Part shown: one piece after another, positions 7,115 to 44,513 of the stretch
How positions within the stretch are numbered: the first letter of the stretch is position 1
Layout of the letters: each line of letters opens with the position of its first letter
Translations under genes and position numbers: made by a program
The notes under the pieces: generated by a model
Database searches by the model: none
What the model was told of the DNA's origin: nothing
The model's input: the letters and a program-made list of their open reading frames with translations, nothing else
From: Bolinopsis microptera
Lineage: Eukaryota; Ctenophora; Tentaculata; Lobata; Bolinopsidae
Direction: 5' to 3'
Length of the DNA stretch: 64,000 nt
NCBI RefSeq assembly: GCF_026151205.1
Contig: NC_087076.1
Span: 20,453,919-20,517,918, forward strand

Positions 7115-9165
7115 GCTGTGTTTAATGTGGTTAAATCATGTGTAGATGCTGGTCAGTAGCTGTATCACTGCACGTGTAGCTAATCTACTGTTAAATCCTG
7201 TGTTAGATGCTTGTGTCAGTAGCTGTTTCACGTGTAGCTAATCTGCTAGTTAAATCCTGTGTACGATGCTCTGTGTCAGTAGCTGTATCACGTGTAGACT
7301 AATATTGCTGTTAAATCTGTGTAGATGCTTTGTGTCAGTAGCTGTATCGTGTAGCTAAATCTTCTGTTAAATCCTGGTGTAGATGCTGTGTCAGTATCAG
7401 TATCACGTGTAGCTAATTGCTGTTAAATCTGTGTAGATGCTGTGTCAGTAGCTGTATCCCCGTGTAGCTATCAGCTGTTAAACCTGTTTGTAGATGCTGT
7501 GTCTGTCTTATGTATACGTGGAGCTAATCTGCTGTTAAATCCTGTGTAGATGCTTTGCTGTGTCAGTCTAGCTGTATCACGTGTAGCTAATCTGCTGTTA
7601 ATTCCTGTTTAGATGCTGTTGTCAGTTTGCTGTATCACGTGTAAGCTAATCTGCTGTTTTTAAATCCTGGTGTTGATGCTGTGTCAGTAGCTGTATCACG
7701 TGTTGCTAATCTACTGTTCAATCCTGTGTAGATTGCTGTGTCAGTAGCCTGTATCACGGTTAGCTAATTCGCTGTAAATCCTGTGTAGATGCTGTGTCCG
7801 TGGTATCACGTTGTATAATCTGCTGTTAAATCTGTGTAGATGCTTGTGTCAGTAGCTGTATCACGTTTAGCTTAATCTGGTTAAACCTGTGTAGATGCTG
7901 ATGTGTGATCGTAGCTGTATCACGATGGTACCGAATCTGCTGTTATAAATCCTGTGTAGATGCTGTGTCAGGAAGCTGTATCACGTGTAGCTAATCTGCT
8001 GTTTAATTCTGTGTGATGCAGTGTCAGTATCTGTATCACGTGTAGAAATCTGCTGTTAAAATCATGTGTAGATTGCTGTGTCAGTAGCTGTATCCCGTGT
8101 AGCTAAATTGCTGTTAACTCCTGTGTAGATGCTGTGTCAGTTGCTGATTATCACGTGTAGCTATTTGCTGTTAAATCCTGTGTAGATGCTGTGTCAGTAG
8201 CTGTATCACGTGTGGCTAATCGCTGTTAAATCCTGAGTAGATGCTGTGGTCAGTAGCTGTATCACGTGTAGCCTAAATCTGCTGTTAAATCCTGTGTAGA
8301 TGCTGTGTAGTAGCTGTATCACGTGTAACTAATCTGATGTTAAATCTGTGTAGATGCTGTTGTCAGTAGCTTATCACGTTGTAGCTATCTGCTGTTAAAT
8401 CCTGTGTAGATGCTGTGTCAGTAGCTGTATCACGTGTAGCTTAAATTGCTGTTAAGCTGTGGAAATGCTATGGGTCAGTAAGCTGTATCACGTGTAGCTA
8501 ATCTGCTGTTAAATTCTGCTGTGATAAGGATGCTGAGTCAGTATCTGTATCCGTGTAGCAATCTGCTGTTTAAATCCTGTGTAGATGCTGTGTAAGTAGC
8601 TGTATTCACGTGTCGCTAATCTGCTGTTAAATCCTGCCTTGTGTAAGATAGATGCCTGTGTCAGTAGCTGTATCACGTTGTAGCAATCTGCTCGGTTATA
8701 TCATGTGTAGATGCTGTGTCAGTCAGCTGATTTAATCAGTGTAGCTAATTGCTGTTAAATCCTGTTGTAGAGCTGTGTCAGTTTTTAGCTGTATCACGTG
8801 TAGCTAATCTGCTGTTAATCCTGTGTCGATGACTGTGTCAGTAGCTGTATCACGTTGAGCTAAACTGCTGTTAATCCTGTGTAGGTGCTGTGTCAGTAGC
8901 TGTATCACGTTTGTAGCTAATCTGCTGTTAATTCCTGTGTAGATGCTTGTGTCAGTAGCTGTATCACGTGTATAATCTGCTGCTAAAACAAGTGTAGATG
9001 TGTGTCAGTAGCTGTATTCACGTGTGCTAATTTGCTGTTAAATCCTGTGTAGATGCTGTTGTCAGTAAGCTGTTCACCGTGATAGACTAATTTGCTGTTA
9101 AATCCTGTGTAGATGCTGTGTTCAGTAGCTGTATTCACGTGTAGCTTATCTGCTGAGTCATTTAA
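7115..9165 (+). repeat. 56-bp satellite array, about 36 copies
   Basis: Tandem units of about 56 bp; typical pieces are CTGTGTCAGTAGCTGTATCA, CGTGTAGCTAATCTGCTG and TTAAATCCTGTGTAGATG. It continues the right palindrome arm outward and is the reverse complement of the array at 1-345. Nearly every unit keeps CACGTG, the palindromic E-box core. Copies differ mainly by one-base insertions and deletions rather than substitutions, which looks like read error on top of a homogeneous array. No coding potential. Confidence 0.93.
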
Positions 9166-9480: not shown

Positions 9481-10045
9481 TAATTATGCCTCCGTTACGT
9501 ATATCTACCTTATGCAAGCGAGGATGAAATTTTGCCTCGTTACGTATATCTACATAATGCAAGCGAGATGAATTATGCCTGTTACGTAATCTACTTAATG
9601 CAAGCGTATGGAATTATGCCTCGTTACGTATATTACATAATGCCAAGCGACAGAATTATGCCGTTACGTTTATCTAATAATGCAAGCGAGATGAATTATG
9701 CTCGTTACGTCTATCTACATAAAATTGCAAGAGAAGATGAATTATGCCTCGTTACGTATATCTAACATAATGCAAGCAGGATGAAATTATGCATCGTTAC
9801 GTAAATTACATTATATAATGCAAGCGAGGATGAATTATGCTCGTTACGTATATTTACATAATGCAAGCGAGATGAATTATGCCTCGTTACGTATTTCTAA
9901 TAATGCAAGCGAGATGAAATTATGCCTCGATACGGATATCTTCATAATGCAAGCGAGATGATTAAGCTCGTTACGTATATCTACATAATGCAAGCGAGAA
10001 TGAAAGATGAATTATACCTCGATACGTATAATCTATCTCATTTTT
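9480..10045 (+). repeat. 43-bp satellite array, block 1
   Basis: About 13 copies of a 43-bp unit whose pieces are ATGCAAGCGAGATGAATTAT, GCCTCGTTACGTATATC and TACATA. Apparent ORFs here (repeats such as MPRYVYLHNASEMNYA) are only the unit translated and should not be called genes. The block ends where a LINE fragment begins. Confidence 0.93.
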
Positions 10046-11490
10046 ATTGTCCCGAAAAGGGTGGTGATACATCATACTGCTCGAAACAACAGGGGATTAC
10101 CTACGCTTCCACGGCATCAAACTCTGTCAGATAATGTTGTTGCGACGGATGAATGCGGTGGCTTGACGAACTGCTCGAGGAATCAGTGTGGGTTCCAGGA
10201 AAAACAGGTCTTGCATAGATCAGATTTATTCGACTCCGTACTATATTCACAACACGCTTGAGTTTAATCTCCCCCTTTACATAAATTTTGTTTGACTTTT
10301 AAAGCGGCATTCGATTCACTTATGGGAGTTTATTTGAAAGCTTTCATTCATTATGGCTTGCTTTGTAAATACATCCGCATAATGCCCGCATTCTTCTGCG
10401 TCACCGTCAGCGCTGTCTGACATAATGGGCGAGCTCTCTGAGTGGTTGACGTTACATCTGGCTCTGGGCAGGGGGATATTCGGTGTCACTATCTTTATGT
10501 TTGTTTTACATCAAACCTGCCTGCGCATCGGGCTGAGGATAACAAAGTGTTGTCACACGGGGCAGTGCTGCAGAGCGACACAGCTCTGGTCAGGATACAG
10601 GTCGTCTGGATACTGACTATGCAGATGATTGGCTAATAATGGACAAACACCAAGGACGGTTCTCCAGGAGTCGACTGATTTTTATGCAAGTATGCGGCTC
10701 TCAGGCTGGCTTCAGAATCATTGCGAAGAAAGAAAACAGAGGTTATGGCCATCGGGCAAGAATACATCACAGAGGCATATACTGAGCATCAACAGTGGAC
10801 ATTACAGTAGGAGCACGCGCTATCCAGCAAGTTCAGAGCAAACTTCACTTACCTTGGGTCGATTTTATCAAGGTGATGGGACTATTGACCGGGATTGTAT
10901 GCAACGGATCCAGAAGCCTCAGGAGCATTCAATCAGCTCGGTAATAATTGGTAAGAATCGCCAATATCCAAACAAACACCAAAATAGGAATAGAGTTTGC
11001 AGCGGTTCAAACAATATTACTTTATCGAAGCGAAGCTGGAACACTACTTCAAAGCAATACATCGCTTCGAAGTTTTTCATCAAAAACTGTTTGAGGAGAA
11101 TCCTTCGAATTAAGTGGTTCCACCGGACGAGCAATGTTCAAGTGTTGGGGGGCAAGAATAAAACCGGTTATAACCTACATCGTGCCAACCGTCTTCGCTT
11201 GTTTGGACATGTTTCTAGAATGCCGGACCACCAGGCTACCAAAGTATCTATTTGATTGGACACTGTCACGGCCGAAGATCACGTGGGCGGCCAAGAAAGA
11301 ATTGGCGATCCTTGTGTCTAGAAGACGCAGTAGCATTCACAGGAGATTCGACATTGTATTTGATAAGGTCCGAGGGTTGGCAGGAACCGAAAAGCATGGA
11401 GAGAGAGAGATGATACGACAAATAAGCGGCAATTCCTTGTGCAGGCCCACTCGAATGATTGAGGAGACCTTATCCGTATCAAGTTCAAGT
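10046..11490 (+). pseudogene. LINE (non-LTR retrotransposon) reverse transcriptase, broken
   Basis: This is a 5'-truncated, frameshifted ORF2 lying inside the 43-bp satellite. In order along the plus strand one can read NNRGIT (reverse transcriptase finger region), DQIYSTPYYIHNTLEFNLPLY, FKAAFDSL near 10,294-10,320 (needing one base removed), GELSEW then DVTSG..QGDI near 10,425-10,475, and the catalytic motif YADD at 10,618-10,629. The C-terminal tail follows with LRRILRIKWFHRTSN and RLRLFGHVSRMPDH (11,190-11,235). These motifs and their order are those of ORF2 of the animal LINE group often mis-annotated as craniofacial development protein 2-like. No endonuclease domain remains. At least four frame changes prevent a full product. 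CGTATATCTA-like sequence occurs at both edges, consistent with insertion into a satellite unit. Confidence 0.85.
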
Positions 11491-14400
11491 AAGTCGTATA
11501 TCTACATAATGCAAGCGAGATGAATTATGCCTCGTTACGTATATCTACATAATGCAAGCGGATCGTGACTTATGCCTCGTTTCGTATATTCTACATAATG
11601 CAATGCGGATGATTTATGCCTCGTTACGTATATCTACTTAATGCAAGCGGGTGAGATGAATTATGCCTCGTTACGTATATCTACCATAATTGCTAGCGAG
11701 ATGAATTATGCTCGTTACGTATATCTACAAATGCAACGAGTATGAATTACGCCTCGTTACGTATATCTACATAATGCAAGCGGAGATGAATATTGCCTCG
11801 TTACGTATATCACATAATGGCAAGCGATGATGAATTCTGCCTCGTTACGTATATCTACATACTGCAGCGAGATGAATTATGCTCGTTACGTATATTAATA
11901 ATGCAAGCGAGTGAATTATGCATCGTTAAGTATATTACATAATGCAAGCGAGATGAATTATTGCCTCGTTACGTATAATCTACATAATGCAAGCGAGTTG
12001 AATTATGCTCGTTACGTATATTACCTAATGCAAGCGAGATGAATTATGCCTCGTTACGTATATCTACATAATGCATGCGAGATGGAATTATGCCTTCGTT
12101 ACGTTTATTTACATAATGCAAGCGAGTGATTATGCCTCCGTTAAGTTTATTACATAATGCAAGCGAGATGATTATGCTCGTTACGTATAATATACACTAA
12201 TGCAAGCGAGATGAATTATGCCTCGCTAGTATAATTAAATAATGCAAGCGAGATGAATTATGCCTCGTTCGTTATCTACATAATGCAAGCGAGTTGAATT
12301 ATGCCTCGTTACGTATATCCTACATAATGCAAGCTAGATGAATAATGCCTCGATACGTATATCTACATAATGCAAGCGAGATGAATTATGCCTCGTTACG
12401 TATATCTACATAATGCAAGCGAGATGAATTTTGCCTCGTTTACGTATATTCTACATAATGCATGCGAGATGAATTTGCCACGTTACGATATAATCTACTT
12501 ATATGGAAGCGAGATGAATTATGCCTCGTTACGTATATCTACACTAAATGCAAGCCGAGATGAATTATGCCTCGTTACGTATATTACAATAATGGAAGCG
12601 TGATGAATTATGCCTCGTTGCGTATATCTACATAAGCAAATGAGATGGAATAATGCCCTCCGTTACGTATATCTACAAATTGCAAGCGAGATGAATTATG
12701 CATCGTTATTTACGTAGAATTCTACATAATGCATGCGAGATGAATTATGCTACGTTTACGTTATATCTACATAAGCTAGCGAGATGTATTATGCCTCGTT
12801 AAGTATATCTTTAATAATGCAAGCGAGATGAATTATGGCCTCGTTACGTTTCTACTTAATGCAGCGAGATGATTATGCCTCGTTACGTATTCTACATAAA
12901 GCAAGCGAGATGAATTATGCCTCGTTACGTAATATCTCATAATGCAAGGCGAGATGATTTATGCCCGTTACGTATATCTACATAATGCAAGCGAGATGAA
13001 TTATGCCCTCGTTCGTTATATCTACATAATTGCATGCGACATGAATATGCCTCGTTACGTATTCTACATATGCAAGCGAGATGAATTATGCTCTCGTTAC
13101 GTATATCTACCTATTGCAAGGAAGATGAAGTATGCCTCGTTACGTATATCTACATAATGCAAGCGAGTGAATTAGCCTCGTTACGTATATCTACATAATG
13201 CAGCGAGATGAATTATGCCTCGTTAACGTATATCTGCATAATGCAAAGCGTGATGAATTATGCCTCGTTACGTATATCTACATAATGCAAGCGAGATGAA
13301 TTTGCCTCGTTTACGTATATCTACATAATGCAAGCGAGATGAATTAAGCCTCGTTACGTATATCTACATAATGCAAGCGAGAATGAATTATACCTCGTTA
13401 CGTATATCTACATAATGCAGCGGAGATGAATTCTGCCCGTTACGTATATCTACATAATGCAAGCGAGATGATTATGCCTCGTTAGTATATTCTCCATAAT
13501 GCAAGCGAGATGAATTATGCATCGTTACGTAGATCTACATAATGCAAGCGAGATGTATTATGCCTCGTTACGTATATCTACCTAATTGCAAGGGAGATGA
13601 ATTATGCCTCGTTACGTATATCTTCATAATGCAAGCGAGATGAATTATGCCTCGTACGTATATCTACATAATGGCAAGCGTGATGAATTATGCTGTTAGT
13701 ATATCTACATAATGCAAAGCGAGATGAATTTGCCTCGTTACGTAGACTAATAATGCATAGCGAGAGAATTATGGCCTCGATACGTATATCATACATAATG
13801 CAAGCGGATATGAATTATGCCTCGTTACGTATATCTACATTAATGCAAGCGAGATGAATTTTGCCTCGTTACGTTATCTACATAATGCAAGCGAGATGAA
13901 TTATGCCTCGTTACGTATATTACATAATGCAAGCGAGATGAATTATGCTCGTTACGTTTATCTACATAATGGCAAGCGAGATGAATTATGCCTCGTTACT
14001 GTATATCTACATAATGCAAGCGAGTGAATTATAGCTCGGTTAGTATATGACATAATGCAAGCGAGGATGAATTATGCCTCGTTACGTATATCTAATAATG
14101 CAAGCGAGATGACTTATGCCTCGTTTACGTAGATCTACATAAGCAAGCGACGATGAATTATGCCCTCGTTACGTATATCTAATAATGCAAGCGAGATGAT
14201 TATGCTCGTTACGTATATCTACATAATGCAAGCGAGATGAACTTATGCATCGTTTACGTATATCTACCTAATGCAAGCGAGATGAATTATGCTCGTTACG
14301 TATATTATCATATGCAAGCGAGATGAATTATGCCCTCTTTACGTATATCTACATAATGCAAGCGAGCTGAATTATGCCCTCGTTACGTATATCTACATAA

Positions 14401-15110
14401 TGCATTCGAGATTGAATTATGCCTTCGTTTACGTATATCTACAAATGCAAGCGGATGATTTATGCCCTCGTTACGTATATTACTAATGCAAGCTAGATGA
14501 ATTATGCCTCGTTTTACGTAATATCTACATAATTGCCAAGCGAGATGAATTATGCTCGGTTAATTAAATCTACCTATGCAAGCGAGATGATTATGCCCGT
14601 TACGTATATTACCAATAATAGCCAAGCGAGATGATATTATGCCTCGTTACGTATATCTACATAATGCAAGCGAGATGAATTATGCTCGTTACGTATATCT
14701 ACTAAATTGGCAGCGAGATTGAATTATGCTCGTTAGTATATCTTACATACTGCAAGCGAGATGTATTATGCCTCGTTACGTATATCTACATTATGCCAAG
14801 CGAGAAGATTTATGCCTCGGTACGTATATCTACATAATGCAGCGAGATGAATTATGGCCTCGTTAGTATAATCAATCATGCAAGCGAGATGAATTATGCC
14901 TCGTTACGTATATCTACATATGCAGGGAGATGAATTATGCCTCGTTACGTATATCTACATTAATGCAAGCGAGATGAATTATGCCTCGTTACGTATATCT
15001 ACATAATGCAGCGAGATGAATTATGCCTCGTTACGTATATCTTCAAATGCAAGCGAGATGACTTATGCCTCGTTACCGTATATCTACATAATGCAGCGAG
15101 ATGAATTATG
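11491..15110 (+). repeat. 43-bp satellite array, block 2 (about 84 copies)
   Basis: Continuation of the 43-bp array after the LINE insertion, about 3.6 kb. Units keep TTACGTA and GCAAGCGAGATGAATTATGC with scattered single-base indels. A third, much noisier block lies at 23,278-23,975 at the head of a duplicated segment. Confidence 0.94.
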
Positions 15111-15313
15111 CAACATAGCAACTCCACGTGTAAGATTCAATCTCATTTTGTGTCTTCATCTCCAATTTTTGTTTCTTCCTAAAAATATTAACGATTTGAT
15201 TGGTCGGATGGGCCTAAATGGAGTTTCTCTTGAAAATAACCAGACAACGATCTACCATAAAGCCGTGAATTTTGCAATATATACAATTTCACTATCCCTA
15301 CCTGTACTTTTCT

Positions 15314-16954
15314 GGAGGGTATCAACGCGACAATTGACCCCCCGACAATGGACCCCCCGAACAATTGACACCCCGACAATCTGACCCCCGACAATTGACC
15401 CCTTATGTAATTAACTGGGGTAAATGTTGGGAATTAGGGCTGAGTACGACAATTGACCCCCGACAATTGACCCCCCGACAATTGAACCCTAGGTAATTAC
15501 ACTGGGGGTCAATATTGTTGCGAAATCTAGGGCTGAGTATCGACAATTGACCCTCCCCACGTAATTACACTGTGGTCAATTGATCGCGGTTAGGGTCTGG
15601 GTCCAGGATCAGGATCCTGGGTTCAGGGTCCTGGGTCAGGGCTAGGAATAGGGTTTTTTTTTGGGGGGGTAGGGTCCTGGGTCAGGGGTAAGGTTAGGGT
15701 TAGGGTTAGGTAAGGGTTAAAGTTAAGGGTTAGGGGTTAGGGTTAGGGTTGGGGTTTGGGTTTGTGGATTAGGGTTCGGTTTGGGTTTGAGGGTTGTGGT
15801 TGGGGGTTGGGGTGGGTTGGGGTTGGGTTTGGGGTTGGGTTTGGGGTTGGGTTTGGGGGTTTTTGGGTTGGGGTTGGGGTTGGGGTTGGGGTTGGGGTTG
15901 GGTTTGGGGGTTGGGTTGGGTTTGGGGGGTTGGGGTTAGGGTCAGGGTCAGGGTCCGGTCCGGTCTCAGGGTTCAGGGTCAAGGTCAGGCGTCAGGGTCC
16001 AGGGCAAGGTCAGGTGTCAGGGTTCAGGGTCAAGTCAGGGGTCAGGGTCTAGGGTCAGGGTCCCCCCAGGGTCAGGGTCAGGGTCAGGGTCAGGTCAGGG
16101 TCAGGGTCAGGGTCCGGAGTCAGTGGTCAGGGTAAGGGTCAGGGTCAGGGTCAGGTCAGGTTCCAGGGTCAGGGTCAGGGTCAGGGTCAGGGGTCAGAGG
16201 TCAGGGTCTCAGGGTCAGGGGTCAGGGTTGGCTGTGGTCGTCTGGGTCCGGGTCCAGGGGTTCCAGGGGTCAGGGGGGGTGTAAGGGGTCTCAGGGGTTC
16301 AGGGTGTCGGTGTTCAGGGGTTTTCAAGGGATGTCAGGGTCAGGGTAGGGTTAGGGTTCCAGGGTCAGGGGTCAGGGTTCTGGGGTCAGGGTCCCAATGG
16401 TCAGGGATCAGGGTTGGTCAGGGTTCAAGGGTTCCCAGGGGGTTTGGGTTTCAGGGTCAGGGGTCAAGGGTTCCAGGGTCCCCAGGGGTCGGGTCAGGGT
16501 CAGGGTCAGGGGTTCAGGGTCAGGGGTCAGGGCAGGGTTTACCATGGTTCCAGTGGTCAGGGGTTCAGGGGGGTCCCTAGGGTCCCCAGGGGGTCCAGGT
16601 TCAGGGTTCAGGGTCAGGGTTTCCAGGGGGCAGGGGTCCGGGTTCAGGGTCAGGGTCCAGGGGATCACGGGTTCAAGGGGGTCAGGGGTTCAGGGGTCAG
16701 GGGTCTCCAGGGTCAGGGGGGTTCAGGGGGTTTCCAGGGTCTGGGTCAGGGTTCCCAGGGTCAGGGGTCTGGGGGTCCAGGGTCAGGAGTTTCGGGGTTC
16801 GGGGCCTGGGTACCCCCTGGGTTTCCTTGGTTCAAGCTTTGGGGGGGGGTCACAATTGTCGGGGGGGGGGTAATTTGTCGGGGATCTATTGTTCGGGGGG
16901 GTTTTATTTGATGGGGGGCCTCAATGTCGGGGGGTCCAATTAGTCGCCCACCCC
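15314..16954 (+). mobile_element. Foldback-like insert with telomere-like core
   Basis: A 1.64-kb insert absent from the duplicate locus near 24,189-24,195. Its left end holds several CGACAATTGACCCCC units (15,327-15,600). Its right end (16,845-16,954) holds the same motif reversed (GGGGGTCxATTGTCG), so the insert has repetitive inverted ends. TTTCT lies on both sides (15,309-15,313 and 16,955-16,959) and once in the empty site, a candidate 5-bp target duplication. The core is G-rich hexamer arrays. There is no credible ORF: glycine-, valine- and proline-rich translations here are repeat artefacts. It may be a non-autonomous DNA transposon or foldback element; the family is not recognised. 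Confidence 0.7.
15630..16840 (+). repeat. Telomere-like hexamer tract in three blocks
   Basis: Within the foldback insert: TTAGGG-type repeats at about 15,660-15,760, TTGGGG/TTTGGG at about 15,760-15,940, and TCAGGG (read as GGGTCA) from about 15,940 to 16,840, with scattered runs of extra G. All are TxxGGG hexamers with the G-rich strand on plus. TTAGGG is the common animal telomere repeat, and TTGGGG and TCAGGG are known variant telomere repeats in other animals. It is interstitial here unless the contig is chimeric. Confidence 0.85.
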
Positions 16955-18940
16955 TTTCTGTTTGAATGAAGCCCTTTATTTTGCCTTAATAAAGGAATTT
17001 AAGGGACAAAACAATTACAATGGTGACTTCTATTATGGACACGAAAAAAAAAAAAAAAAAAGGGCTCAATGTATATGCCTTACCCAATTTCTCGAAAAAG
17101 TATCCTGGCCAATTTATAGGAATTTTGAAATAAATGGTACTTGTCCTTTCAGAGCATTTGAAATACTAACAGTAGCCAAATACGGACGGGAAAAAAAACA
17201 CCACAATAACTGGGCCTTACAAAATTACACTATAAAAAAACGGGTCAATTTGGCCGGGTAAGGGGAAAAAAATTTCCACCAAGTTTAGCCAATGGGTCGA
17301 CAAAAAATAACACAAGGCCCCACTCTTAAGGGGCACGGGGTGGGGCACAAGGAAACGGAATAGGGCACAACAATGGGAGTCTTATCTAAAAACAAAATAA
17401 CAATTATGGTAGGGGAACGAGCACTATGTCGTCTAAAATACTATATTAACGTTTTTTAACAAAAACCTGATTAACTTGGGTTGAGGGAGATGGAGTCTCA
17501 CCAGTATTTGCTACCAGGTTAGGAATGATAGTTTGCTCGGAATATTTTTAAAGTTGTTGTTGGAATCCTTGTACTTCCTTATTTCACTGGAAATTCCTCC
17601 CGCCGTTTGAGGTTTTTTATTTTACAGCCTTTGACCAATAGGTCGCGCGGGGTGCTGTCTCTCGTATTCTAAAAATGGTTTAACTAAACTCAAGATGTCC
17701 CTCACAATAAAATAAATGGAGGAATTAATTTACAATTGATATTAAGGTTAGGTTTAATTAACTAATCCAATGAACAGCCCCCCGTAGCCAAGGGAGATTA
17801 TGAAAAGATACAATTTTTCTTAGGCCTGGAAGGGCGAAGGTTCCGAGGGGGACCCGGGAAAGGCCTTAGGGCCGGGGGGTGGGGGACGTTAAAGGGCCGA
17901 ATGAAAACATTTTTGGAAGGGAGAGAGAAATTTAGGATTATTTTTTTCCACGTTATCCTGCATTTTACCTCGTTACCATGTCCTGCAATTTTTTTCCCCC
18001 GTATCCTGCATTTTTGGCCCTTAGGGCTTTTTGAAAAAAAAAAAAAAAAAAAAAGGCCTCGAGTTATGTGGGGGAACCATCTAAGCACCAAGGCAAGATA
18101 TGGTTGTTTTTTACTGAGGGCTATCTTAAATTAAAAGGGTGTTTCAAAAAAAGGTCGGGAAAAAAACAGCCAGGCTGTTTTCTGGACAATTTATAAATCA
18201 CTTTAAGGGGAAGGCTTTTTTCAGTGTATCATTCGGTGGGGGAAAATGCTTCCAAGATTCTAGAGGGCTTTACGGCATTTTTCCAGGTTCTAAATTCGTT
18301 TACAAGGGCTTTATAACGGGCTTATTAATGCACTTTACGAGAAAGGACAATACGGGGGGCCCCCCAATGTTTCCTAATATACTTCCAAGGGAACGGAAAA
18401 GGGGGGAGAGAGGAGGAACTGTTGTTTGAGGTAACTAGGGCCAGGGTGTGGTTTACAGGGTTGGAAAAAACCTTTCGCACCTTACCTTTTTTGCAATAGT
18501 CATCGGGGGGGGGACCATGACTGTATTGGAGGGGGGGCATAGCCATAGGTGATGCATGCGGACGCGACATTGGGGACCCACTCCCACTACTCAAAACGTA
18601 AAAAAAAAAAAAAGGGCAGGAACAGAAGTTCATTTGGGGCCCAAGATTTCCATCCCACCCGATTTGGTTGTACTTTTGGGCAGGATGAATTTTAAGCCAA
18701 CTATATTTTCTGAGGTGGGACATGGGGGGGGGGGGACAAGGCCAACGAAAGTTTACCTCCCACTTCCAGGATCCGGAGGTTAGAAAATTTGCGGGCGGGC
18801 AAGCGAGGCGTTATGGGTTACCACTTAAAAAAAAACGGAAGGGGGGCCAAGTGAGGATTGGATGATTTTAATCCCATCTCTACACTTCGACTGTCCACGT
18901 GACTTTTTTCAAACCCCAGTTCTCTTAGCTGGCCTCTTGA
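16955..18940. other. Unique part of duplication copy 1, no gene seen
   Basis: About 2 kb with long A and G runs. A partial reading ALIKEFKGQNNYNGDFYYGH at about 16,985 resembles ALIKGKLRKKQFHMGELSIYGH in copy 2 at about 24,214. That is expected of two copies of one sequence and is not by itself evidence of coding. No domain was recognised. Confidence 0.5.
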
Positions 18941-23277: not shown

Positions 23278-26080
23278 AATGCAAGCCGGGATGGAATTTT
23301 GGCCTCGTTAACGTATTTTCAACTTATGCAAAAGCGAGATGGAACTATGCCTCGTTAACGCTTATTGTATTTTCTTACATTAATAGGGCAGGCGAGATTG
23401 AAAAATTTATTTTGGCTCGTTACCGTATATCTTAAAACTAATTGGTCATGCGACGATGAAAACAACAACTAAAACTATGGCCTCGTTTACGTATTTCTTT
23501 TACATTTAATGCAAGCGAGGATTTGAATATAGCTATGGGCCTTCGTTACGTATTAAATTTCTACATAATGCAAATGCGAGAGGTAATTATTTATTGCCTT
23601 CGTTTTTTACGTATTTTCTTTACATTAAATTTGGGCATAAGCGAGGGATGAATTTATCGTCCATCCCGTTACCGTATAAATCTTTTTCAACATAAATGCC
23701 CAATGCGAGATTGGGAATTATTTGCTCGGTTAACGTATCAATATCTACATAAATGGCAAGGCGAAGAGGTTGGGAATTATGGGCCTCGTTGTTTTACGTA
23801 TAATCTACATTTAATTGGCATAGCGGAGTTGGGGGAAATTATTGCCTCGTTAACCTATTATCTAACATAATGCAAAGCGAGAGGAATTTATGGGGGACCT
23901 CGTTTTACGTATATCTATTCATAATGCAAAAACGGAGAGAGGAAATTTTATGTCTCCTTTCGTTTACGTATATCTCTACCATGTAAGATTTCTTCTTCAA
24001 ATTTTGGGTTTTGTTATTCCTAAATATATTAACGTTTTTGATTTTGGATTCAGGGATTGGGGCCTCTTAAAATGGGGAATCTTTTTGAAAAAATAATAGC
24101 TAGTTTACATCCCGATTTATACCATAAAGAGTTTTGCCATATTGTGCAATATTTACATTTTTTAAATAATTCCCACCTGTTTACAGTTTTTTCTGTTGGA
24201 AAGCCCTTAATTTTTGCCTTAATAAAAGGGAAATTAAGGAAAAAACAATTCCATATGGGGGAACTTTCTATTTATGGACACGAAAAAAAAAACGCTTCGA
24301 TGTTAATATTGGCTACAATTCTCGAAGGAATTCCTAGCCAAATCTTAGGAATTGAAATAAATTGGTCCTGGGTTCTTTCAGGGAGGGCAATTGAAAAAAT
24401 TAAACCTTATGAGTAAAAGCAAATTTACTGGCTTTACCAATACCACCAATCAACAACAGTCAAATGCCCGGAAAATTTTCTTGACATGTTTTAAGCCAAG
24501 GTTCGAATTGGTACACCAGGCACTAGGCAGGGTGGGGCACAGAGGAACGGGGAATTAGGGGGCCACAAACAATGGTGATCGTATCTAAAATCCATAATAT
24601 TTGATGGTAAAGGGGAAAGGACTATGTTTCGTCCTAAATTTTCTTATTATTATAAAACGTTTACCCAAAATACCTTATATCAAAAAACCTTTGGGGGTTG
24701 AGGGTGGATGGAGTCTTCACAAGATTAGGATTTACCCCAGTTAGAAAAGTAGTAGTTGTCGAATAAAGTTTGGTTTTGTGGATACCCTGTTTACTTCACT
24801 TGTAAAATTCTTCCCGCGTGAGGTTTTCTTTTTAATTTTACAGCTTTAACAAATTAGGAGGACGGGCGGGGCCAGTCGTTATTTTTCTAAATATGGGTTA
24901 CTAACTCAGATGTCCCTCAAACATTAAATGGAGGGAAATTTAATAATTGATTATTAAGTTTAGGTAATTAACTAATCAAGATATACAAAAGCCCCGCGTA
25001 TGGCCTAGATATGAAGATTAAAAATCTGCCATTGGGGCAGGGGGGCGAGTTTCCGACAGCGGGTAACAGCTTAAGGGGCCAGGGGGGGGACGTAAAGGGG
25101 GCCGAATGAAAACAACAAATTTTGGGAGAGAATTTTGGTGGAATTATTTCCCATCGTTTTTTATCCTGCTTTTTTCCACGTTTCCTGCATTTGCCAACGT
25201 TTTCCTGCATTTTTTGCCTTAGGCTTTTTGAAAAACAAAGTGTGCCTCGATTTTAATTGTCTAGGGAGGGGACCATTACTATAAGGCCCAAAGCAGTTAT
25301 GGTTACTTGAGGGGGGGCATTCTAATTAAAAAGGGTTGTCAAGGAAGTCCGGGGATAAAAAAAACTGCCAGCCTGTTTCTTGAACATTACAAACTTTAAG
25401 GAAAGGCTTTTCTACAGTGCTAACCATCGTGGGGGAAAAATGCTTCCTAGGGATTCTAAGAAGCTTACCGGGGGCATTTCCAGTCAAATATACGTACAGG
25501 CTTATACCGGCTTTCTTGTTACGACAGGGAAGCGGGGGGTGGACCAACGGGCAAAAAGGGTCCTACATATATCTCCAGGGGGTGGGGGCCTGAGGAAACA
25601 AAAAAAAAAATCTGTTTGTTTGGAGGGTATGCCAGGTTTTGTGTTTTCAGGTGTCGGGAAACTTTATTCAAACCTTTACCTTTTTTGCATTTTGTCATTT
25701 CCGGGACTGCTTGTAATTGAGGCCCAAAAGGCCTTTAAGGTTGATTGATGCGGGAGCGGACTTGGACTCCACTCTTCGAATAACGTAAAAAAAAAGCAGA
25801 AGAGTTGGTGACCAAGGATTCATCACCGATGTGGGGATTTTCAGGATGGGATATTAACCCTTATTTTTCTTGTGAGGACATGGGACAAGGGGGCCCAACC
25901 GAGTTCCTCAAGTTCATTGCTCCGTGGTATGGATTCGGCGGGGCGGGCAAGCGGGAGGGGGCGTATGGCTACCAACTTAAACCGAAGAGCAATAAGTGAG
26001 GATGATGATTAAATCCAACTCTACCACTTTCGGACTGTTCACGTTGGACTTTTTCAAAAATAAACCCGTCTCTAGTTAAA
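23278..26080. repeat. Segmental duplication, copy 2 (empty site)
   Basis: Degenerate 43-bp satellite (23,278-23,975) followed by sequence matching 15,110-15,313 and 16,955-18,940. The join that corresponds to the telomere-like insert reads through as ACAGTTTTTTCTGTTGG at 24,184-24,200. This copy therefore represents the locus without the insert. No gene recognised. Confidence 0.82.

Positions 26081-31171: not shown

Positions 31172-31200
<29 letters not shown>
31172..31200 (+). repeat. Poly-C run, 29 bases
   Basis: A continuous run of 29 C. To its left the sequence has inflated homopolymers and broken frames; to its right it is clean. It may be a true homopolymer, a read-end artefact, or a join between contigs of different quality. 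Confidence 0.95.
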
Positions 31201-34329: not shown

Positions 34330-36588
34330 TTAAGTCTGGGTGGTCAGAGGAGTGTTGACTGGACTCAAAACATCATACTTAATATATCGTCCAACGTTTC
34401 TAGCGTCAATTTTCGCCTTCAATCCCCTCATTTTCTCCGTCATCCGTTGCATGCACGCCTCCTGCTCAGGAGAAACAGCCATGTTCTCTCCAAAAATGCC
34501 AAGTTTGTTCTCTCCAGGTGAGTCGAGGTAGAATCTCTCAATAGGAGAGTACTGTCCCAGGTTATTTGATATGTTCATGGCAATGAAGTGGAGCTCCAAC
34601 ACAGGAAGAGCGTCCAGTATCATATCCATGGTGACCTTTGTATCTTGTTTAGGAGGAGGGAGGGTCATGCACGAGGGGACATTCGGCGGGAAGGTGTAAG
34701 TGGTGAATGTCTGGAAGTTGACCGCGGTATGGAACACAGAGATGTTGACGATGACGCATGTTAGATACTCAACTAGCTGTTCTCTATTGGCCATTGATCG
34801 TGGGAAACCAGCACCGTTTTCGTAGCCATGGAAGCCAAAGTCAACCAAGTCTTTGAAGACGTTCTGAAGCTCAAGATCTTTGACGACGTCTTCATCGGAG
34901 GGGTATGTCAAATTGACCATCTCAGAGACGTATTCACCGATGTATTTCCAGTAATCAAGAGTGTCTTCTTTGTATAAATACTCAGGAATGTCTTTAACAC
35001 CACGTTTTTCAAAGTTCTTTTCTAAATTCAGGTCTGCGTAATCAAAGGTTTGGTAGTAGTTGTGAAGAAGTATCTTCAAACTATCACCTGCTGAGAGGAA
35101 TAGGGCAAAGGCATTTTGATCAGGATTTATCAACACAGCTCTTGCTTGAACATTGACCGGGATTATACCCTGAATGTGGGGCTGCAGTAACCTAAAGATG
35201 GGATGGGCATTTGGCAGGTTTCGGTAAGCTGCTACTGCAAAGATTTCGTTGGTGGCGTGACCTCTAGCGTAGTGGGTGCACAGAGAATATACACCTAGAT
35301 CAGCACACCTAAACCACATTTTGGCGTATAGCCAGGCTAGATGTTCGGGGTCATTCAAATCCGTTATATCAGGACTAGGAGGGGACCACCAAGTTTCAGG
35401 CTCCCCATCAGCTCTGTTTTCTAATCGAATCAGAACAGGAACCAACTTTCCATCATCTCTCTGATACAGAAGACAATCGGCGAGACACACATACCAAGTT
35501 TGTGCTGTTCCGGTCAGCTTTTTGCTGAATGCCCCACCATGAGGGATACCAACTAAGTCGTCGAAGCAAACCTCAAACAAATGTCCTTCTCCTATCACGT
35601 CCTGCACGGATTTATTTTCCAATGCGTGGTCGGGAACTGTTCCTCCAGCCCAGCGTCCCTCCAGGGATGTTACCCTTCTGATGTGCAAAGAGTTGGGGCC
35701 ACACAGCATCTGTCTTCCGAACTCTTCATCCTGACGGAATACTTTGGAAACTTTCAATGCATCAAGGACAAGGTCTTTGGGCCATTCCATTTCATCTGAT
35801 TGCTCTTTCATATAATCTCTGTATTTCTGAAAAGAGTCGGCCTTTTCCTCTTTGTACTTTCCTAAGATTTTTTCCTTTATGTTTGACAAAGCGTTATTTT
35901 TAATCTTTTTCACTCCTTCAGCCCTCAAATCGTTAAAAGCGTCTAATTTCGCTTCCCTAAACTTTAGAAACCTCGGTAGATTGTCATACTCCATGATGTT
36001 CAAGTAACCGGGATAAAAATATTCACTTGATTCATTTTTGAAATCATTCCACTGAACCAAGGAGTGAATGGTTTGCAAATCTTCTTCTCTTGCTTTGATG
36101 ATGAAGTCCTCAGTTTCTTGGTGTTTCAGAGTTCCAGCTCCCTCTCGAACGAGAAAATGTGGCGGGCATCCCAATTCGGCAACAGTAGGGTTTCCTCGCA
36201 TCGGGTTATGAGGGTACACAAAGTTTTTGATGGGGAAACGGTAAGGGTCCCGGTTATACACGATTGTTATTTCCCGTACATACAGAGCATCCTTCACAAG
36301 TTCAAATCTGTTGCTTTCCAAGTCTACTTTAATCAGTTTTGGTACCCCTACATTGGCGGGAAGCCAAAAATCTACCGTCACTGCCCCTTCTGTCATCATC
36401 GGGAAGAGTTCCTTGACTTTAAGGGGTTTGGATTCCGAAGTCTCACATCCAGGGTTAACCGTCAAAATCATCATTCCATCGTCCCATTTCTTGGTTGACT
36501 TCTTGGAAGGAATGTAAGAACCAGTTTGGATGATGAATGTATAGGAAGCTTCTTCTCCTTTGTTTTCTTCAACACCGTTAACTGTCAT
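34330..36588 (-). CDS. PLAT-domain lipoxygenase, intronless
   Basis: 752 residues, close to the usual 660-750 of animal lipoxygenases; such enzymes dioxygenate polyunsaturated fatty acids such as arachidonate, with one non-haem iron. Residues 1-125 form the N-terminal PLAT (C2-like) membrane-binding domain; the rest is the helical catalytic domain. Iron ligands are seen as His439 and His444 (THYARGH), His620 and Asn624 (FHTAVNF). Typical helices are legible as LAWLYAKMWFRCADLGVYSL and NLPNAHPIFRLLQPH. The last residue is Thr752 where animal enzymes normally end in Ile; its carboxylate could still bind iron. The ATG at 36,588 has AAA before it and an in-frame TAG six codons upstream, which fixes the start. 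TATATCTAG just upstream could be a splice acceptor for a 5' UTR exon. The single-exon form may reflect retroposition or intron loss. Regiospecificity (5-, 8-, 12- or 15-) cannot be told. Confidence 0.96.
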   Translation of the reverse strand: MTVNGVEENKGEEASYTFIIQTGSYIPSKKSTKKWDDGMMILTVNPGCETSESKPLKVKELFPMMTEGAVTVDFWLPANVGVPKLIKVDLESNRFELVKDALYVREITIVYNRDPYRFPIKNFVYPHNPMRGNPTVAELGCPPHFLVREGAGTLKHQETEDFIIKAREEDLQTIHSLVQWNDFKNESSEYFYPGYLNIMEYDNLPRFLKFREAKLDAFNDLRAEGVKKIKNNALSNIKEKILGKYKEEKADSFQKYRDYMKEQSDEMEWPKDLVLDALKVSKVFRQDEEFGRQMLCGPNSLHIRRVTSLEGRWAGGTVPDHALENKSVQDVIGEGHLFEVCFDDLVGIPHGGAFSKKLTGTAQTWYVCLADCLLYQRDDGKLVPVLIRLENRADGEPETWWSPPSPDITDLNDPEHLAWLYAKMWFRCADLGVYSLCTHYARGHATNEIFAVAAYRNLPNAHPIFRLLQPHIQGIIPVNVQARAVLINPDQNAFALFLSAGDSLKILLHNYYQTFDYADLNLEKNFEKRGVKDIPEYLYKEDTLDYWKYIGEYVSEMVNLTYPSDEDVVKDLELQNVFKDLVDFGFHGYENGAGFPRSMANREQLVEYLTCVIVNISVFHTAVNFQTFTTYTFPPNVPSCMTLPPPKQDTKVTMDMILDALPVLELHFIAMNISNNLGQYSPIERFYLDSPGENKLGIFGENMAVSPEQEACMQRMTEKMRGLKAKIDARNVGRYIKYDVLSPVNTPLTTQT

Positions 36589-36664
36589 TTTAACGCTCAA
36601 ACTCTAGATATAAACAGGATTAAGTTTAGATTTAGTCAATATTAATTTATTTAGGAATGAAATA

Positions 36665-43430: not shown

Positions 43431-43664
43431 TAACCCACTCGTCTGCTGACGTAACATTGTTAGCCAAAAACTTCCCAACTTCCCTAAAACTTAGACACAA
43501 AAACTTAACTTAACATGTGCACGTTCGAGAACAGTAGCAATCATTTTATTCAGTAGCAATCATTTTATCTAGCTTATGCAACGGTTTAAATCGTCTCTTA
43601 TCAGCTGTTTTATCAACTTTAACACAGCACCGTGCTGTACAGCCCGTTTGTTGTACAATTGATA

Positions 43665-44513
43665 ATGGAATTCAACGTAGCAGATCTACACACACAAGAG
43701 GAAGCTTTGCATTCATCAGTGGAAAAAGTTTTAAAAGCTGTCAATACTGCAAATACTGCGAAGAACGCTGTCAATATTGAAAAATTTGAGGAACTGAATC
43801 ATGCAGCACTCATGAAATGTAACAAGGACACGATGGCAAAACTCATTGAGAACTTAACCAAATCACTGATCAGTAACATTGTTTTATGCAAATCTGCAGC
43901 CGGTACCATCGATTATGTTAAGTCAGAACTGATAAAAGTGCAGAGAGAGCAGCTAAAGTCTGTGCAGGAGACTGTTCAAACTGAGATTAAAACGGAGATG
44001 AAGACATGGAGCGAAATTGCCAGAAAAAACTGCGACAATAAAGCTCCAACTTTGAAGACAGTGAAGAAAGCAGTACAGTCTGCTGTTCAAGACGACGCTC
44101 GGAGCAGGAACTTCATCGTCCACGGAGTTCCGGAGGACTACTCCACGTGCCCCGCTGATTTAGCAGATGAAGTACTGGACAAGATTTTGCAACACAATAA
44201 CCACTCTGATGTTGTAGCTGCTAATCGTATCGGTGTGAAGAAACGGGAGGATGGTAGGCCGAGGCCAATCAAAGTGACTATGAATAGTAACGAATCAGTG
44301 AAAGAGGCTCTCTCGAGAGCAAATCATTTGAAAAAGTCCCTCTGTACAACCTACCACAGCTGGTTCGTTGCTCCAGATAGAAACCGAGAGGAACAAGCAA
44401 CACATAAAAAACTCGTAGCTCAATTAAAGGAGAAAATATCTGCTGAACCGTCGAAGTATCACTATATTAACGACGGAAAAGTTTTGAGTGTAGTGAATGC
44501 ATATAAGAGATAA
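43665..44513 (+). CDS. LINE ORF1-like nucleic-acid-binding protein
   Basis: An intact 282-residue frame. Residues 1 to about 130 are charged and helical with coiled-coil character (KVLKAVNTANTAKNAVNIEK, then KSELIKVQREQLKSVQETVQ). From 146 RSRNFIVHGVPED begins an RRM-like domain of the type seen in LINE ORF1 proteins, followed by RIG (188-190) and RPRPIKV (198-204). The C-terminal part has APDRNREE (236-243) and a YHYINDGKVLSV ending. In LINE retrotransposons ORF1 proteins coat the RNA and act as chaperones. No reverse transcriptase frame follows, so the element is incomplete or the ORF moved alone; domestication is possible but not shown. The ATG at 43,665 is the first in frame. A hairpin (ATTGCTGAATAGCAAT) at 44,717-44,732 lies in the 3' flank. 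Confidence 0.75.
   Translation: MEFNVADLHTQEEALHSSVEKVLKAVNTANTAKNAVNIEKFEELNHAALMKCNKDTMAKLIENLTKSLISNIVLCKSAAGTIDYVKSELIKVQREQLKSVQETVQTEIKTEMKTWSEIARKNCDNKAPTLKTVKKAVQSAVQDDARSRNFIVHGVPEDYSTCPADLADEVLDKILQHNNHSDVVAANRIGVKKREDGRPRPIKVTMNSNESVKEALSRANHLKKSLCTTYHSWFVAPDRNREEQATHKKLVAQLKEKISAEPSKYHYINDGKVLSVVNAYKR

Follow-up and report, generated by a model that had tools for sequence, protein, structure and literature searches.

Telomere-type hexamer cores in a foldback transposon family of the ctenophore Bolinopsis microptera with a FLYWCH-MULE transposase copy

Foldback elements such as TU of sea urchins and FB of Drosophila carry arms of short tandem repeats, with a unit of 15 bp in TU, and we know of no telomere-type core in either of them. 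Tm1 Mutator/Foldback elements have been described in root-knot nematodes (Meloidogyne; PMC3169594). According to that description, Tm1 shares with the ctenophore family reported here asymmetric outer motifs (7 bp in Tm1) with one kind at each end, arms made of a variable number of tandem repeats (~14 bp), a MULE transposase with an N-terminal FLYWCH domain (496 aa vs 477 aa here), long target-site duplications (9 bp vs 8-9 bp here), a single transposase copy beside many non-autonomous copies, and one class in which acquired host-type sequence, a histone hairpin in Tm1, lies between the arms (PMC3169594). The two differ, by eye, in the arm motif (CGATTCAGTATCCGC in Tm1, CGACAATTGACCCCC here) and in the tips (CGGTTAA / CCTACCC vs GGTACCG, GGGTGGG); moreover, 39 and 22 elements are described for Tm1, whereas the copy number is higher here, the Tm1 transposase has seven predicted exons instead of an uninterrupted open reading frame, and the ctenophore family, unlike Tm1, has cores of telomere-type hexamers (PMC3169594). 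Since the motif letters differ, the ctenophore family follows the same plan as Tm1 but is not Tm1 itself.

Phantom MULEs also combine FLYWCH and MULE domains with duplications of 8-10 bp and arms of up to several hundred bp, although ctenophores are absent from the host list of group 20 in that account and the likeness to Phantom is one of domain plan (PMC6446971). Tetris / TIR-220 of Drosophila virilis is, as described, likewise a foldback element whose internal tandem repeats expand to satellite-like arrays and vary in number between copies of one insertion, but there the expanding repeat lies in the arms, is about 220 bp long and is not telomere-like, and the description reports no transposase copy (PMC4079207). 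Interstitial telomeric sequences inserted at breaks by telomerase are similar in being TTAGGG arrays away from chromosome ends; however, each of those arrays is described as its own repair event, whereas here the arrays ride in transposons with one common junction (PMC2246262). As far as literature searches show, the novelty here lies in the telomere-type core and in the fraction of the examined interstitial telomeric repeats that it makes up; judged by titles and abstract openings, we noticed no paper on such cores within elements of the Mutator or foldback type.

The window is the whole stretch of DNA analysed, 64,000 nucleotides at C5:20453919-20517918 of the 264.65-Mb Bolinopsis microptera genome. 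Judged from its sequence, the insert in the window is very probably a non-autonomous cut-and-paste transposon of the Phantom-type Mutator/Foldback (MULE) kind, and its family has roughly two hundred or more copies in the genome. The family has defined tips, arms of 15-bp repeats, target-site duplications of 8-9 bp and empty sites, and one copy with these ends bears a transposase. The ends, the duplications and the transposase-bearing copy point to a kind that is already known, Phantom-type Mutator/Foldback elements like nematode Tm1, and in this respect the original prediction of an undescribed mobile unit did not hold. The parts of the insert and its empty counterpart are given below in window positions.

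15310..15317, plus strand: left target-site duplication TTCTGGAG, 6 of 8 bases identical to the right copy
15318..15329, plus strand: A tip, a noisy reading GGTATCAACGCG of GGTACCGCG/GGTATCGCG
15328..15576, plus strand: A-side foldback arm, tandem units of CGACAATTGACCCCC alternating with a palindromic module TGTAATTACACTGGGG...GCGAAATCTAGGG
15577..15595, plus strand: A junction, a noisy reading of CAATTGATCGGG followed by TTAGGG (clean form CAATTGATCGGGTTAGGGT)
15590..16790, plus strand: telomere-type hexamer core, mainly TTAGGG and TCAGGG to begin with, followed by a block of TTGGGG and, last, a long block of TCAGGG
16841..16945, minus strand: B-side foldback arm, 15-mer units inverted and strongly corrupted
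16945..16953, minus strand: B tip CGCCCACCC, the reverse complement of GGGTGGGCG
16956..16964, plus strand: right target-site duplication TTCTGTT(T)G
24191..24198, plus strand: empty site in the duplicated locus, with the undisturbed target TTCTGTTG

The insert runs from its A tip at about 15318 to its B tip at 16953 and is a little narrower than first given. The inverted CGACAATTGACCCCC clusters that had been claimed to surround it are present in the sequence: the 14-base pattern CGACAATTGACCCC has eight matches at two or fewer mismatches against 0.34 expected, only one of them in the right cluster, which is heavily error-ridden. TTTCT on both sides, also claimed, is present as part of the target duplication (TTCTGGAG on the left, TTCTGTT(T)G on the right), and strictly only TTCTG is common to the two sides of the window insert. 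The palindromic module of the A-side arm was compared by eye with L020 and L053, and the order of hexamers in the core is that of L093-L095, three clean copies read whole. The locus at 24.19 kb, from which the insert had been said to be missing, does behave as an empty site, with the left flank aligned up to 24195 (152 identities, 16 mismatches, 72 gap columns) and the alignment of the right flank starting at 24190 (410 identities, 48 mismatches, 155 gap columns). Indel differences are dense between the window copies at 15.1-17.5 and 24.0-24.8 kb, which is consistent with an unpolished long-read consensus. Given this noise, what is said of the window copy is based on cleaner copies at other loci.

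The remainder of the window contains two satellites at 7130-9155 and 9482-15111, with units of about 55-57 bp and 43 bp; the 43-bp array stops 200 bp before the insert, and units resembling it by eye also lie at 23.6-24.0 kb, ahead of the empty paralogue. Positions 31172-31200 form a run of 29 C. On the minus strand, 34330-36600 holds an uninterrupted 756-aa open reading frame with a lipoxygenase domain (PF00305, E=1.9e-50), and on the plus strand a 293-aa frame at 43632-44513, with no Pfam match at E 0.001, resembles by eye the first open reading frame of a LINE. Glutamate-receptor matches (PF10613) number 32 in the genome, 13 of them in single open frames of 654-989 aa. Of three glutamate-receptor open reading frames compared with solved structures, one (L091) has as best relatives the ML032222a iGluR chains, ML denoting Mnemiopsis, and the other two have kainate receptors.

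The flanks of the window insertion, joined by a single target copy, were searched against the genome. The join is crossed at three places, C2:241937 (all 112 bases, 94%), C2:138455 (bases 13-112, 96%) and C11:5329509 (bases 13-104, 95%), where the flanks run straight through with one target copy; the two C2 sites read CCTGTACTG-TTCTGTTG-AAGCCC and the C11 site reads TTCTGTAG. No excision footprint was seen at these three clean empty sites. The same query also returned five filled C2 loci as split matches, together with three partial matches (C10, C5, C3). L093, L094 and L095 (C2:210395, 393029 and 402352) share the flanks of the window, with CCTACCTGTACTGTTCTGGAG before the A tip and TTCTGTTGAAGCCC after the B tip. 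Of the five filled copies, four have the left duplication of the window letter for letter, and the fifth, L094, shows one further change. This shared alteration suggests that a single old insertion was afterwards copied along with the DNA around it, and the window locus and the filled loci related to it on C2 look like duplicates of one insertion rather than separate insertions. Lengths of 1302, 1086 and 1261 bp in three filled copies and 1963 bp in a fourth imply that the hexamer arrays changed length after duplication. The window insertion is precise, and its duplication reads as 8 bp with a left copy that now differs by 2 bases. The precise insertion that had been proposed is therefore borne out by the cleaner empty and filled paralogues, and the comparison of flanks with empty alleles supports its interpretation as mobility or insertion.

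Other tracts bounded by inverted CGACAATTGACCCCC, which the original prediction had suggested looking for, are many. The 15-mer has 2,670 exact copies in the genome (1312 forward, 1358 reverse; none for the reversed-letter control), mostly in facing clusters at the fetched loci, while exact A tips (GGTACCGCG) number 192 and exact B tips (GGGTGGGCG) 200, with no control match for either. Pairing was scored on C1-C6, for which 100 A and 96 B tips were listed. An exact B tip within 8 kb faces 60 of the 100 listed A tips, at distances of 60 to 6568 bp (median 641), and is absent for the other 40; there is no A..A, B..B or same-strand pair among the listed tips, and a single back-to-back pair. An A..B pair was recognisable in 34 of 44 loci given for the duplication test and not in 10. 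Exact flush duplications border 28 of these 34 copies (8 bp in 24, 9 bp in 4), the six others being L042, L093-L095, L109 (one mismatch) and L111; when copies of one insertion are pooled, 24 of 28 distinct insertions have one. Of the 1,122 mismatched flank pairs that served as control, 10 match too, which is the number of ordered pairs among the copies with identical flanks (L005/L012, L029/L045, L044/L051/L107). L068 is inserted in a tandem repeat whose neighbouring units, by eye, lack the insert, and has the duplication GTAGTAAG. As expected of foldback elements, the family has long inverted arms in which short tandem repeats vary in number. L110 and L031 have the left flank and the target TTGTGAAG in common, the former being a 60-bp element with both tips and the latter longer and without a B tip, so that size changed after insertion. 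The 6.57-kb A..B pair at C3:17234097 was rejected as an autonomous candidate; its only two open reading frames of at least 80 aa are one of 85 aa and one of 179 aa that runs over arm and hexamer repeats.

A transposase with the same terminal motif was also found. The genome has 88 MULE profile matches, and the CGACAATTGACCCCC motif occurs in two (L051, L053) of the 20 loci fetched. The element in L053 (locus C3:14094809-14098087, element C3:14095306-14097909, 2604 bp) consists of a B tip, ten 15-mers, a 477-aa open frame, a module-bearing right arm and the A-tip variant GGTATCGCG; it is bordered by the 9-bp duplication AGTTTTTAT, and its interior is without a hexamer core. The frame matches MULE (PF10551, residues 199-291, E=1.7e-14, 54.5 bits with a cut-off of 27.6) and FLYWCH (PF04500, residues 4-73, E=8.9e-9). 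A MULE domain thus lies inside an element bounded by the family ends and the duplication falls within the 8-11 bp of the Mutator superfamily, while the N-terminal FLYWCH finger joined to the MULE domain is the arrangement of Phantom. In an alignment of 16 frames from the 20 loci of the same genome, with four frames below 200 aa dropped, D199 of L053 is common to 11 of 16 rows (2 gaps, 3 other letters), D264 to all 16, and E395 to all 10 rows that cover its position. The acidic triad D199, D264 and E395 is present in L053 and is putatively catalytic, the role that such residues have in the MULE family.

Among the 89 of 422 candidates scored in a tblastn search with the L053 protein, there is only one full-length transposase copy. 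A second copy, L087, is 91-95% identical but lacks residues 157-315 in the middle of the gene; it has kept both arms and the A tip and lost the B tip, and its duplication is, by eye, GTAGATAT. Further matches are two fragments of 77% and one of 81% identity, the other listed matches being 27-37% identical. The 81% fragment (L089) was set aside, as no 15-mer was found there, and L051 was rejected as a second motif-bearing MULE because its MULE adjoins the element, itself a duplicate of the L044 insertion. Among solved structures, no convincing relative of the L053 transposase was found (best E 0.35). A genome search for the KDZ domain gave no match, and its control likewise matched nowhere.

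A core of at least 10 hexamers on the A-to-B strand, with at most three on the other, is present in 30 of the 34 elements, and L053, L099, L110 and L111 have none or almost none. The orientation is accordingly the same in all 30 bearing copies (24 distinct insertions). The core arrays are composed of TTAGGG, TCAGGG and TTGGGG. The exact A junction CAATTGATCGGGTTAGGGT has 120 genome copies and no control match. In a junction test of 36 rows, 7 of which were dropped as duplicates to leave 29 distinct insertions, the first unit after the A junction CAATTGATCGGG was TTA-type in 22 of the 25 found and never TCA, and the last unit before the B-side sequence AATTGTATTAAATT was TTA-type in 13 of 18, against 360 TTA and 639 TCA units overall; these counts are not independent trials because the copies share descent. 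L053 has the same B-side sequence as the hexamer-bearing copies. The most economical reading is that a TTAGGG-type tract replaced the interior once and that TCAGGG and TTGGGG blocks grew later. A tract made by telomerase would start as exact TTAGGG in register with the exposed flank; the junction units are mostly TTAGGG, a comparison limited by shared descent and by the unread telomere repeat of the host. None of six contig ends (600-base ends of C1, C3 and C5) has a telomeric array, the host repeat not being readable there, and in two papers on ctenophore genomes word searches met no reference to telomeres.

The usual interpretation of interstitial telomeric sequences is that they are scars left by chromosome fusion or break repair. 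In this genome, overlapping counts are 15,396 for (TCAGGG)4 (control 46) and 4,273 for (TTAGGG)4 (control 0). All nine distinct (TCAGGG)4 places among the matches listed (C1, 2.11-7.99 Mb) lie within the family of the window insert. Among the matches listed for (TTAGGG)4 (C1, 0-17.1 Mb) there are 17 distinct places, of which 12 lie in either of two foldback families, six in that of the window insert and six in a second one; three are in copies of one larger repeat (L078, L082, L084) and two in no recognised element (L076, L083). Two of the six places in the first family were assigned from listed tips alone, 16240411 sitting between an A and a B tip and 14599229 about 200 bp from an A tip. As these listed C1 places are mostly in foldback elements, telomere-type DNA can spread by transposition, and the window-insert family may account for much of the telomere-like DNA away from chromosome ends. 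In L083 (C1:12189400-12190700), TTGGGG, TTAGGG and TTGAGG blocks lie side by side. In L078, L082 and L084, a TTAGGG array lies between an inverted repeat (17 bp in L078, GACAACTGAACCCAATT) within a larger duplicated sequence.

The second foldback family (L075, L077, L079, L080, L085 and L086, all on C1) has arms GGGGTCCGGACTCTAGGGCGTAAGACTCTAGGG... / GGGGTCCGGACTCTAGGGCGTAAGACTC... with the 15-bp unit GACTCTAGGGCGTAA, one arm being recognised in L086. Its exact arms number 102 genome-wide; the 100 listed form 42 facing pairs (34 of 131-221 bp) and no outward pair, leaving 16 arms unpaired. By eye, 9-bp duplications are CACCGGAAC in L079, ATTTTGATG in L080, AACAGGGTA in L077 and GAGCATATA in L113, with no clear duplication in L085, and L075 lies within a GT repeat. 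The cores in the six (TTAGGG)4 loci are TTAGGG with at most one TCAGGG each, and no transposase of this family was present in the loci read. L113 (C12:4702588-4706804) is a 4.2-kb member without a TTAGGG core that contains an 886-aa reverse transcriptase frame (PF00078, E=5.7e-19), and it may be a nested retrotransposon or a composite element.

Several other explanations bear on these data. The duplicate at 24.19 kb could have lost the element by deletion or excision, in which case its site would not be ancestral. Assembly noise keeps the window pair from being judged by itself; however, the three cleaner empty sites have a single target, TTCTGTTG in two and TTCTGTAG in the third, whereas excision usually leaves part of the second duplication and such a remnant would be expected, which makes loss highly improbable. 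It is also very unlikely that the elements were moved by a transposase of another family (hAT, P or Merlin) and that the MULE copy shares their arms by capture. Duplications of 8 bp are compatible with this, being also produced by hAT and P elements, but L053 combines both ends, its own 9-bp duplication and the MULE gene, and a second, older copy (L087) has an arm at either side as well as the A tip. Duplications of 8-11 bp are, moreover, described as normal for MULEs (PMC6446971). The tract could finally be a chance interstitial telomeric sequence from break repair and no transposon, as insertions of this sort, some with target-site duplications, are described in mammals (PMC2246262). Such an origin, already refuted by the family-wide ends, is extremely improbable in view of ~200 exact copies per tip, target duplications of 8-9 bp and a transposase copy that matches the family.

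For the core alone, a non-telomeric origin is conceivable, by slippage from the GGGTCA of the element itself, with TTAGGG as a later C-to-T variant. Each arm unit (GGGGGGTCAATTGTCG) contains GGGTCA, the more frequent hexamer is TCAGGG (639 vs 360), all nine listed (TCAGGG)4 places are within the window-insert family, and in L044 and L051 the array continues in phase into an arm unit. On the other side, the junction units are mostly TTA-type (22/25 at A, 13/18 at B), and the second family, with other arms, has TTAGGG cores with one TCAGGG at most in six loci; we consider slippage possible but rather doubtful.

If the window insert is a Phantom-type Mutator/Foldback element, the FLYWCH-MULE transposase would bind the 15-mer arms, pair one A tip obligatorily with one B tip and move transposase-less copies in trans. 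The hexamer lineage would have arisen once, when a TTAGGG tract, bordered by the A-side module and by ATTGTATTAAATT, the subterminal sequence of the B side, replaced the interior of a transposase-type element; blocks of TCAGGG and TTGGGG would then have grown inside it by tandem-repeat instability, and transposition and local duplication would have spread them. The first TTAGGG tract may have come from telomerase at a break, telomere capture or slippage. A speculative extension, to which we give only limited credence, starts from breaks inside transposons: independently in two or more foldback families with different arms, telomerase or telomere capture would have put TTAGGG in place of the interior, probably in failed gap repair after excision. 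These families would have stayed mobile, since movement requires no more than the ends, and would have become the chief vehicles by which telomere-type DNA reaches internal chromosome sites.

Mutator arms in placozoans are described as bearing a chromatin-loop motif, which suggests that a host can take up arm motifs of such elements (PMC12221973). In the ctenophore family, the tip rule (60 facing A..B pairs and no A..A or B..B pair among the listed tips) offers a way to test whether a MULE transposase pairs unlike ends, and one open transposase copy with many short partners provides a small system for an assay. Interstitial telomere-type DNA should be checked for a transposon before it is read as a fusion scar.
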